From: a bacterium
GTDB taxonomy: Bacteria; RBG-13-66-14
Assembly (NCBI GenBank): GCA_035528375.1
Contig: DATKYS010000031.1
Coordinates: 1 to 64,000 of the forward strand
Direction of reading: 5' to 3'
Length of the DNA stretch: 64,000 bases
Made by a program: the position numbers and the translations under genes. A model generated the notes under the pieces. It was not told where the DNA came from and ran no database searches. It saw only the letters and a list, made by a program, of their open reading frames with translations. Shown here one piece after another: positions 43,787 through 47,776 of the stretch (its first letter is position 1; every line of letters begins with the position of its first letter).

Positions 43787-43937
43787 GGATACGCCGTTGC
43801 AGATTTACGAGTATCGCTTGCCGTAAGTGACTGGTGTTCGGGGGCGCCCCTTTATCGCTCCACAGCCCGCTAGAAGGCGGCGCGCACGTCCCGCTCGGCG
43901 CCTATGCGGCGTGTTTGTTTATCGGGCTCCCCGGGTC

Positions 43938-43946
43938 TGGTATAAT
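43938..43946 (+). promoter_or_regulatory. extended -10 promoter of uvrC
   Basis: TGGTATAAT; the ATG follows seven bases after the -10, so the transcript should start at or next to the start codon (leaderless). No good -35 at 17 nt. Confidence 0.6.
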
Positions 43947-43953
43947 TTCTCCC

Positions 43954-45885
43954 ATGGGTGGCTACGCGGCAGGGCTCGAGCTCAAGCTGAAGAACCTGAC
44001 CCACGAGCCCGGCGTCTACCGCCTGCTGGGCGGCGGGAGCCGGGTGCTCTACGTGGGGAAGGCGAAGGACCTGGCGAATCGGGTCCGCTCATACTTCCAG
44101 CCGTCGGCCGACCATCCCCCCCGCATCCGCTCCCTCCTCAAACGGGTGGTGGACTTCGAGGTCACCATCACGGCCAATCCCGTCGAGGCGCTCCTGTTGG
44201 AGTCGTCCCTCATCAAGCTCCACAAGCCCGCCTACAACGTCAACCTCAAAGACGACAAGCGCTACCCCTACGTGCGCGTGACCGCGGAGGAGGAGTTCCC
44301 CCGGCTCGTGGTCACCCGCGACACCCGGGCCAGGGGCAGCCTCTTCTTCGGTCCCTTCTCCAACGCCGGGGACATCCGGCGGACCATCCGGACGATCCAG
44401 CGGCTCTTCCGGCTGCGCGTCTGTCGTCGGGAAATCCACGTCTGGCGGGAACAGGGCGGCACGGCGCCCATGCCCGACTGGCGGCCCTGCCTCCACTACA
44501 ACATGGACCGCTGCAGCGCGCCCTGCGTCGGCTTTGTGAGCCTGGAGAATTACGCGGGTTACGTGCGGGCGGCCAGAGACTTCCTCCAGGGCCGCCGGGG
44601 CGACGTGGTCGAGACCCTCCGGTCCGAGATGCTCCAGGCGAGCCAGAAGCGGGAGTACGAGCGGGCGGCGAAGCTGCGCGATTCCCTGCGGGCCCTGGAA
44701 TCGGTGATGACCAGGCAGCGCGTGGTCAGCCCCGGGAAGGAGGACCTGGACGTGCTGGCCCTGGCCCGCCGCCGCGGGGAGACGGTGGTGGAGCTTCTGA
44801 AAATCCGGGAGGGCTTTCTGCTCGCCGACGAGCATTTCTCCCTGGAGCACACCCGGGGCTCCAGCGACGCCGACGTACTCTCCGCCTTCACCGTTCGGTA
44901 CTACACCGGCGCCGACTGGGTGCCCCGGGTGGTGGTGCTGCCCGAGGAGCCCACAGACGGGGAAGATCTGGAACTTTTACTGTCCCGGCTTCGCTCGGAG
45001 AGCTCCCCGATGGTGGTGGCCCGGGCTCTGTTGCGCGCGTCGCCGTCCGAGGAGCCGGAGCAGAAGCCCGGCCGCGTCCGGGTCCGCCTCGCCGTTCCCC
45101 GCCGCGGGGCCCGGCGGGAGCTCCTGGAGCTGGCGCGTAAAAACGCGGAGAAGAACCTCGAGGAGGAGCTGCTGGCCGAACTCGGTCGGCACGGTCAGGC
45201 CGAGGCGGCCCTGGAGCTGGCCGAAAAGCTCCGGCTGCCCGTCATCCCCACCCTCATCGAGGGGCTCGACATCTCCAACCTCGGGGCGGAGCAGCCGGTG
45301 GCCGGGGTGGTAGGCTTCCGGGGCGGGCGGCCCGCCAAGAACCTCTACCGCCGCTACAAGCTGAAGACCCCCGGCCCGGACGACTGCGCCATGCTGGCCG
45401 AGGTCGCCCACCGGCGCTATCCCAAACTGGCCGAGAGTGGCGAGCTGCCGGACCTTATCCTGGTGGACGGGGGGAAGGGCCAGCTCGGCGCGGTGGTCGT
45501 CCAGTTGAAGGAAGACGGCCTGGCGGGCCGTTTTGCCGTGGCCGGGCTGGCGAAGAAGGAGGAACTGCTGTTCCTCCCGGGGCGCTCGACGCCGGTCCGC
45601 CTGCCCCCGGACTCGCCGGCGCTGCACCTGGTCCAGCGGGTCAGGGACGAGGCCCACCGCTTCGGCCTGCGCTACCACAGGCAACTGCGCCGCTCCGAGG
45701 GGTTGCAGTCCATACTGGAACGTATCCCCGGCATCGGACCGAAGAGGAGGAGGGCGCTTTTGGACGCCTTCGGCTCGCTGAAAAAAATCCGGGCGGCGAG
45801 GCCGGAGCGGATAGCCGAGGTGAAGGGGATGAGCGAGAAGCTGGCCGCCGAGCTCCTGCGGTACTTAAAGATCCACTACTACTAG
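43954..45885 (+). CDS. uvrC: excinuclease ABC subunit C, 643 aa
   Basis: Nucleotide excision repair nuclease making both incisions with UvrB at DNA damage. GIY-YIG endonuclease at residues ~13-90 (GVYRLLGGGSRVLYVGKAKD, then RVRSYFQ). UVR motif for UvrB contact ~225-255 (REYERAAKLRDSLRALE). RNase H-like 3' nuclease ~400-560, with GLDISNLG and ILVDGGKGQLGAV. Helix-hairpin-helix pair at the end (ERIPGIGPKRRRALLDAFGS). Full length. I chose ATG 43954 because the family starts there and the longer frame to 43834 lies upstream of the promoter. No ribosome site precedes it, in line with a leaderless mRNA. Confidence 0.95.
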   Translation: MGGYAAGLELKLKNLTHEPGVYRLLGGGSRVLYVGKAKDLANRVRSYFQPSADHPPRIRSLLKRVVDFEVTITANPVEALLLESSLIKLHKPAYNVNLKDDKRYPYVRVTAEEEFPRLVVTRDTRARGSLFFGPFSNAGDIRRTIRTIQRLFRLRVCRREIHVWREQGGTAPMPDWRPCLHYNMDRCSAPCVGFVSLENYAGYVRAARDFLQGRRGDVVETLRSEMLQASQKREYERAAKLRDSLRALESVMTRQRVVSPGKEDLDVLALARRRGETVVELLKIREGFLLADEHFSLEHTRGSSDADVLSAFTVRYYTGADWVPRVVVLPEEPTDGEDLELLLSRLRSESSPMVVARALLRASPSEEPEQKPGRVRVRLAVPRRGARRELLELARKNAEKNLEEELLAELGRHGQAEAALELAEKLRLPVIPTLIEGLDISNLGAEQPVAGVVGFRGGRPAKNLYRRYKLKTPGPDDCAMLAEVAHRRYPKLAESGELPDLILVDGGKGQLGAVVVQLKEDGLAGRFAVAGLAKKEELLFLPGRSTPVRLPPDSPALHLVQRVRDEAHRFGLRYHRQLRRSEGLQSILERIPGIGPKRRRALLDAFGSLKKIRAARPERIAEVKGMSEKLAAELLRYLKIHYY

Positions 45886-45902
45886 GGCCTGCCCCGCGGC
45901 TG

Positions 45903-45926
45903 AAAAAAAGGACCCCTTAGGGTCCT
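45903..45926 (-). terminator. intrinsic terminator reading leftward (ncRNA 3' end)
   Basis: Minus strand: AGGACCC-TAAG-GGGTCCT stem followed by T7. No T-run on the plus strand, so it does not serve uvrC. No minus-strand protein gene lies upstream, only the candidate ncRNA. Confidence 0.7.
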
Positions 45927-46128
45927 GGTCTCGATAGTGGCGGCCGGCGTACCGCGTGGTCGTAAGTTTCGCTTTAACAGAACCTTTGCACCAAGTGGGT
46001 GCCTTGGGATCGTCGTCAGCCGTAGGCCGCGAAGGCCCGAGCCGCGTTCGATCCAGCCAGGGTCCCGTTCATACAATTGTTGGTTCTTTTTTACGCTCTG
46101 CTTACGGGCCCCGCAGAGGGCGCCGGCC
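45903..46128 (-). ncRNA. candidate structured noncoding RNA (6S-like rod?), ~226 nt
   Basis: A leftward transcript defined by a promoter (46163-46135) and the terminator above. Nested complementary blocks, by plus-strand coordinates, are 46121-46128 with 45942-45949 (8 bp), 46101-46106 with 45961-45966, 46082-46087 with 45979-45984, and 46049-46054 with 46007-46012. A side hairpin is 45988-45992 with 45998-46002. The predicted first base, 46128, is the first base of the outermost helix. A competing 5-bp hairpin (46096-46100 with 46114-46118) exists. The rod with a side hairpin on the 3' half recalls 6S RNA, but I see no sequence signature. It lacks tmRNA, RNase P and SRP hallmarks. Confidence 0.5.
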
Positions 46129-46134
46129 ACGAAA

Positions 46135-46163
46135 AGGGTACACCAACGGGGGCACCTTGACAA
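46135..46163 (-). promoter_or_regulatory. promoter of the candidate ncRNA
   Basis: Minus strand TTGTCA (46163-46158), 17-nt spacer, TACCCT (46140-46135); the start expected at 46128 coincides with the first base of the outer helix. Confidence 0.5.
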
Positions 46164-46223
46164 GCCTGAATTCCCTCCATGCCTTATTTTACTGGAATTG
46201 CGAAGCTTGCACGGACTCCCATC

Positions 46224-46252
46224 TTGGTTTTTCCGCCCCGTATGTGTATGAT
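46224..46252 (+). promoter_or_regulatory. promoter of the ClC gene
   Basis: TTGGTT (46224-46229), 17-nt spacer, TATGAT (46247-46252); start near 46259, leader about 28 nt. The other bases between 46164 and 46223 hold only a weak AATTCC/GGAATT hairpin. Confidence 0.5.
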
Positions 46253-46286
46253 GGCCCGCCTGGACCGTAACCGTGCGTGAAGGCTC

Positions 46287-47564
46287 GTGCGCAGGATTAA
46301 AAATTTCACCGTCTGGCTGCTCGTGGGCGCCCTGGGCGGAATCGCCGCAATCGGCGCCCGGGAGTTCATCGTCTGGTTCGGCGCGGTGATTCACGGCGGC
46401 GTGCCGCCGGCGGATTGGGGGACCCTCGCCTGGTGGCGGATTCTCGTTCCCCTCACGCTGGGCGGCCTCGCCGTCGGTCTCATCGGGAAGTACGACTGGG
46501 AGATGATTTCCGGCGCCGGACTGGACGACACGCTCCAGTGCTACCACCAACACGGGGCCCGCCAGAAACCGCTCGATACGCCGGCCAAGCTCTCCGCGAG
46601 CCTGGTGGGCCTGGGGTGCGGCATCTCCGGGGGGCTGATGGGCCCCATGACCTACGTCGGGATGGGTGTGGGCGGCTGGATCGGACGCGCCTTCCGTTTC
46701 GACGCCGACGGTGTGAGGACGGCCGGCCTTTGCGGCATGGCGGCCACCCTGGCGGCCATCCTCGGGGCTCCGCTGGGGGCGGCCATCTTCACCTGCGAGG
46801 TGCTCTACCACGAGCACATCGAATACCGCCGTTTCTTCCCCGTTCTCCTGGCCGCTCTGACGGCGCACCTGTTGACCCGGCTCACCGGTTTCTACAAGCC
46901 GCTCTTCTCCTTCAACCCCACCGGGACGCCCACGGTCAGCCTGGAGCTGGTCGGGTCGGTCCTGTCGGTCGTCGCCGTGGGCCTGGCCGTGGCCGCGGGA
47001 TTCTTCTACCTCTACCGCCTGCTCGAGCGTCTCCGCGAGCGATCCGGGCTGCCCCGGTGGCTCTCGCCGGCCCTGGGCGCCCTGGCGAGCGCCCTCCTCA
47101 TCGTCCTGGTCGCCCCGGAGGCGGCGGGCAAGGTGCTGTCGGTGGGGGCGACGACGATTCGAACCGTGAGCGTGTCGGCGCCGGTCACCTGGACCGACGC
47201 CCTTGTCCTGACGGTGCTCAAGGCGACCCTGGTGGCCCTCGCCGTGGGGAGCGGCGCCAGCGTCGGCCTCCTGGCCCCGGCGCTCATGTTGGGCAGCCTG
47301 GTCGGGGCCGGGGTGGCCGATCTGATTCCGGTTCAGCAGACCATCCTCGTGGCCACCGGCATCACCGTGGTCCTGGTCACCCTGACCAACTCGCCCGTCG
47401 GGACTATCGTGATGATGCTGGAGATATTCGGGCCCGAGGTGCTCATCCCGGTCACCCTGGCCGGGCTGGTGGCCAACCTGGCGAGCCGGAAGCTGGTCAT
47501 CTACCGGGACGTCCTGCCCTGGCGGTCGGAGGTGCGGGTCGTGGACAGGGGGCCGGGGGATTGA
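46287..47564 (+). CDS. ClC-family chloride channel/transporter, 425 aa
   Basis: Integral membrane anion channel or exchanger with about ten hydrophobic segments. Signature 2 region reads GCGISGGLMGPMTYVGMGVGG (residues ~111-131). Where classical ClCs have G-K/R-E-G-P with the gating glutamate, this has G-L-M-G-P. The later filter GSGASVGLLAPALMLGSLVG (~322-341) is well preserved, and GAGLDDTL replaces the GSGIP motif. It therefore belongs to the Glu-less SGG-x-x-GP branch common in bacteria, more likely a passive channel than a proton antiporter; that is inference. No CBS domains. GTG start at 46287. Promoter close upstream; the gene ends in a repeat cluster. Confidence 0.85.
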   Translation: MRRIKNFTVWLLVGALGGIAAIGAREFIVWFGAVIHGGVPPADWGTLAWWRILVPLTLGGLAVGLIGKYDWEMISGAGLDDTLQCYHQHGARQKPLDTPAKLSASLVGLGCGISGGLMGPMTYVGMGVGGWIGRAFRFDADGVRTAGLCGMAATLAAILGAPLGAAIFTCEVLYHEHIEYRRFFPVLLAALTAHLLTRLTGFYKPLFSFNPTGTPTVSLELVGSVLSVVAVGLAVAAGFFYLYRLLERLRERSGLPRWLSPALGALASALLIVLVAPEAAGKVLSVGATTIRTVSVSAPVTWTDALVLTVLKATLVALAVGSGASVGLLAPALMLGSLVGAGVADLIPVQQTILVATGITVVLVTLTNSPVGTIVMMLEIFGPEVLIPVTLAGLVANLASRKLVIYRDVLPWRSEVRVVDRGPGD

Positions 47565-47570
47565 TCCGAG

Positions 47571-47776
47571 GCGGCGGGTGTCCACACCCGCCCGTTGGGT
47601 TATTCAACTCCGTACCCAAAATGTAGGGCGGGGACTTTAGTCCCCGCCGCAATCTACACCTCTCCCTAGCCCTCCCCCCAAAGGGGGGAGGGGACATGCC
47701 TTCACCTCCGCGATGCGATGATGTAGGGGCGGACCTTTAGGTCCGCCCGCGGGCGACCGTGGGCGGTCGCCCCTAC
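47571..47776. repeat. cluster of GTAGGG-family palindromes
   Basis: Four elements in 200 bp. They are GGCGGGTGTCCACACCCGCC (47574-47593), GTAGGGCGGGGACTTTAGTC continuing to 47650, a CCCTCCCCCC-AAA-GGGGGGAGGG hairpin (47670-47692), and a full-length member 47723-47776 with GTAGGGGCG/CGCCCCTAC ends. No gene in 47565-47833. Confidence 0.75.

Follow-up and report, generated by a model that had tools for sequence, protein, structure and literature searches.

Homology and covariation evidence for a divergent 6S RNA gene beside uvrC in a poorly sampled bacterial family

6S RNA is a small bacterial RNA that holds the main RNA polymerase idle and acts as a global brake on housekeeping transcription. 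Its rod imitates an open promoter and occupies the housekeeping holoenzyme, which is released upon transcription of a product RNA from the bubble (PMC8876501). GG at positions 4/5 is a hallmark of the product RNAs of E. coli, A. aeolicus and Rhodobacter, the criterion for such RNAs being GG at positions 4/5 or 5/6 together with an A just past the start, and 6S genes next to rarA have been documented in lactic acid bacteria (PMC8414754). Ms1 RNA, known from Actinobacteria, is a 6S-shaped rod of related overall architecture that binds sigma-free RNA polymerase core and whose homology is hard to detect (PMC9130861). Our search for literature on 6S RNA in the phylum studied here found nothing, a weak result since the phylum name was not usable as a query.

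The window, which is the whole stretch of 64,000 nucleotides that we analysed, contains between uvrC (43834-45885, plus strand; Pfam UvrC_RNaseH_dom, E 2.8e-43) and a ClC-type chloride channel gene (46287-47564, plus strand; Pfam Voltage_CLC, E 9.8e-50) a region that a preliminary description had read as the gene of a regulatory RNA of about 226 nt, perhaps a divergent 6S RNA. Homology models indicate 6S RNA at this locus, and its helices covary. We conclude that it is very probably this genome's single-copy 6S RNA (ssrS) gene, convergent with uvrC and divergent from the ClC gene, with leftward transcription predicted from a promoter at 46163-46135 to a terminator at 45926-45903. The predicted primary transcript, terminator included, spans 45903-46128 on the minus strand (about 226 nt). 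This kind of RNA is already known; what is new is a relocated version, scoring below the Rfam threshold, in a poorly sampled bacterial family.

At Rfam gathering thresholds no family was found in the whole window, and to that extent the locus is unannotated, as had been claimed. In E-value mode, the best match among 4227 Rfam families was 6S RNA (RF00013), which aligned over its full length (positions 1-187 of 187) to 45945-46122 on the minus strand with 28.2 bits and E 5.8e-4, compared with E 0.045 for the runner-up family. The gathering score of RF00013 is 46.4, and the shortfall counts against a 6S reading. Such cut-offs protect against false hits; we tested common descent apart from them, and, since a sub-threshold score alone cannot decide identity, we examined relatives. 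Matches to Atu_C8, ASpks and isrO at the locus lay far under their own cut-offs and were taken as chance, that of Atu_C8 falling mainly on the terminator. A search of the whole genome with RF00013 did not report the locus, apparently owing to its first-look filter, and a direct scan does report it. No other 6S gene was found in this genome with RF00013 or with the family model R1 described below.

Our sample of the phylum comprised 14 genomes, and the family set consisted of six sequences, the window and five relatives. RF00013 matched the five same-family genomes with 34-37 bits at loci homologous to that in the window, and it exceeded its cut-off in five genomes from two other families of the phylum, with 51-100 bits. 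We built a covariance model, R1, from the six family sequences alone (conserved core 45940-46127, minus strand, in the window) and searched 145 genomes with it. R1 gave one match in each of the six family genomes and, at E <= 0.01, seven loci outside the family, all of them above the RF00013 cut-off. One is the canonical 6S RNA of a genome of the same phylum, G007 (R1 E 1.4e-7, RF00013 100 bits), and each of the other six, from outside the phylum, coincides with an RF00013 match of 62-107 bits. These searches support common descent of the family RNA with canonical 6S RNA. On the opposite strand of the locus R1 scored 23.6 bits, as expected because the rod is near-palindromic. A second model, R2, made from the canonical 6S RNAs of sister families, did not recover the window-family loci at significance. 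This result counts against the 6S reading, and the 6S link therefore rests on R1 and RF00013; the failure of R2 is a measure of how far the family has diverged.

The R1 result bears directly on the suggestion that a different structured regulatory RNA, such as a base-pairing sRNA, merely converged on the shape of a rod. The score under the curated 6S cut-off and the new gene neighbourhood would both fit that suggestion, but a convergent rod would not retrieve 6S RNAs, which make up 7/7 of the significant R1 matches outside the family, and the searched genome would then have no other 6S gene; we regard it as very unlikely. An Ms1-like RNA binding polymerase core, as in Actinobacteria, is highly improbable. 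In its favour, the locus shares with Ms1 an overall rod and a central bubble, and Ms1 is difficult to detect by homology; however, Ms1 is known from Actinobacteria (PMC9130861), no Ms1 family appeared among the locus matches up to E 10, the 6S motifs GAACCAAC, GGGA and CCCACYUGG are retained, and the R1 matches in other phyla are canonical 6S RNAs.

The 6S reading is further supported by conservation of the RNA within its family. The six RNA sequences are 58-95% identical in pairs. The RNA is conserved beyond its flanks; between G004 and G006 the core is 84% identical, the upstream flank 51% and the downstream flank 35%. The family consensus fold has 47 pairs, and 12/47 show two-sided changes with pairing retained, so the compensatory changes sought downstream of uvrC in relatives are present. 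Paired cells amounted to 94.3%; shuffling gave 85.1 +/- 1.3, and sliding the partners gave 35-45%. When the seven outside matches were added, the resulting set of 13 6S sequences had two-sided changes in 34/47 pairs, a count that leans towards structure because the alignment was fitted to the model. Three tracts, AGAACCAAC, GGGACCC and GGCACCCAC(C/U)UGG, are invariant in the family apart from that single C/U, and CCAAC is invariant in all 13 RNAs. A degenerate pseudogene or chance palindrome, for which only the low RF00013 score speaks, is scarcely credible given compensatory changes, invariant bubble motifs, a kept promoter and conservation above the flanks in six genomes with identity down to 58%.

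The four nested complementary blocks of the preliminary description were all located, and the minus strand from 46128 to 45903 folds into a rod in which a central bubble lies between a closing and an apical stem, an arrangement backed throughout by compensatory changes. Its energy is -97.3 kcal/mol, compared with -78.1 +/- 5.1 in dinucleotide shuffles (z = -3.74; 0/200 shuffles as stable). The outer helix of the closing stem pairs 46121-46127 with 45943-45949 (compensatory changes in 3/7 pairs within the family), and the inner helix pairs 46101-46116 with 45952-45966, whose strand includes a conserved ACG (3/13 pairs). Above it, a downstream, P2-type helix joins AGAACC (46082-46087) to GGUUCU (45979-45984); AGAACC is family-invariant, and 3/6 pairs are compensatory across the 13 6S RNAs. 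The base of the apical stem is formed by GGGACCC (46060-46066) with GG-ACCC at about 45997-46004. A side hairpin, GCACC-CACUU-GGUGC, lies where it had been noticed, at 46002-45988 on the 3' side of the bubble, and contains the 6S signature CCCAC(C/U)UGG. In the free minimum-energy fold it yields to the main rod; it appears in constrained folding once the template strand is blocked.

Both ends of the transcript bear the signals that had been described. A leftward TTGTCA-17-TACCCT promoter is present on the minus strand (-35 box 46163-46158, -10 box 46140-46135), and the closing helix begins with the expected start, 46128. The exact pattern, chosen post hoc, occurred once in the window and never in shuffles. 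TACCCT agrees with TATAAT at just 3/6 positions; this weak box counts against the 6S reading, and because of it a strict consensus scan misses the promoter. The promoter is conserved as TTG(T/C)CA-17-TA(C/T/A)CCT in 6/6 family genomes, 10-13 nt ahead of the RNA. At the other end, an intrinsic terminator (45903-45926) consists of a unit tailed by T7 that ends at 45903 and includes a 7-bp stem (45926-45909), and comparable hairpins occur in most relatives. A conserved protein frame is absent from the region. A protein-coding reading was rejected, sense and antisense frames all being interrupted somewhere among the relatives. Long open frames do cross the RNA in the window at 45937-46251 and 45956-46270 on the plus strand, which are not kept in relatives, and at 45882-47585 on the minus strand, antisense to the ClC gene; these frames look spurious, a product of GC-rich DNA.

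The locus resembles 6S/SsrS (RF00013) in its bubbled rod, length, bubble motifs, full-length model alignment, single copy and own promoter and terminator, as well as in the retrieval of canonical 6S RNAs across phyla by R1. It differs in its score (28.2 bits against the 46.4 cut-off) and in adjoining uvrC rather than ygfA or rarA. By analogy with described 6S RNAs, we infer the following course of events in the cell. Transcription would run leftward from the promoter at 46163-46135 to the terminator at 45926-45903, and the RNA would fold as a rod that, with its bubble between closing and apical stems, imitates an open promoter. It would then bind RNA polymerase loaded with the housekeeping sigma factor, blocking the enzyme while growth is slow or stationary. 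Using a template on the bubble's 5' side (46079-46092), the polymerase would initiate at a C that alignment places at 46079 and make a short product RNA, GUUGGUUCUUU..., the template giving 5'-GUUGGUUCUUUUUU. Synthesis would melt AGAACC/GGUUCU, and the freed GGUUCU strand would pair with GGGACC as the 3' hairpin forms, releasing the polymerase.

Several features of the sequence are consistent with this course. With the start placed at 46079, the product RNA would carry GG at positions 4/5, and the window has an A directly after CCAAC; in both respects GUUGGUUCUUU is in line with known product RNAs. When the template was blocked in silico, GGUUCUGUU (45976-45984) left AGAACC and paired over 9 bp with AACGGGACC (46061-46069), its putative partner in a collapse helix, and the GCACC/GGUGC hairpin formed. 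The collapse helix was predicted in 4/6 family members and in 3/7 other 6S RNAs, the former count weighing against the 6S reading; covariation is uninformative on it within the family because 6/9 of its pairs are invariant. A refolding of the central bubble on template use is plausible as a model. Bacillus subtilis 6S-1 (bsrA) is similar in having a G-initiated product RNA, which is predicted here, a 3' bubble hairpin and a possible collapse helix formed by the freed 3' strand of P2 (PMC8876501). It differs in that the collapse helix of the window family is predicted in just 4/6 members and in that the 3' hairpin of the window RNA is unstable in the free fold.

The neighbourhood of the gene has changed within the phylum. 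Within the family, the RNA gene and uvrC face each other with their 3' ends in G000, G001, G003, G005 and G006. uvrC had no match in G004, and neither uvrC nor the RNA was found in G002, where the locus is probably just missing, as this genome is 75% complete. In other families the 6S gene lies upstream of rarA (mgsA), at about 80-120 bp and on the same strand in G007, G012 and G010 and at about 1 kb in G008, G011 and G013; the rarA of the window's genome is on a separate contig. The simplest reading is that 6S departed from an ancestral rarA neighbourhood in the line of the window family and now sits at uvrC, a clear change of neighbourhood inside one phylum. There is a small chance that the family has a lineage-specific 6S RNA that is not only out of the rarA neighbourhood and beyond standard detection but altered in behaviour, for example with release shifted to suit its own polymerase or, by way of its constant adjacency to uvrC, with a tie to DNA repair.

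Returning to the reading as an ordinary though divergent 6S RNA, annotation by the Rfam cut-off would fail to list the gene in all six family genomes and in G012, which belongs to another family; where 6S seems to be lacking in poorly sampled phyla, detection may therefore have failed. As seeds for widening the Rfam 6S model, the six family sequences would be useful. The additional sub-threshold 6S gene in G012 was exposed by R2 (G012:C1:1364215-1364391, minus strand; R2 47.8 bits, RF00013 33.9 bits) and lies directly upstream of rarA. In G009, a genome of another family, f4 (1.6 Mb, 91% complete), searches with RF00013, R1 and R2 and for rarA all came back empty, and a true loss of both 6S and rarA is possible there. 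The ClC gene adjoins 6S in G006, and in two close relatives, G001 and G003, queA adjoins it instead, which reflects gene loss or gain within the genus. In all four genomes of a further family (f3), the canonical 6S gene is closely preceded by the end of a gene on its own strand and has rarA downstream; in the sole one scanned (L137), the upstream gene encodes a TPR protein.
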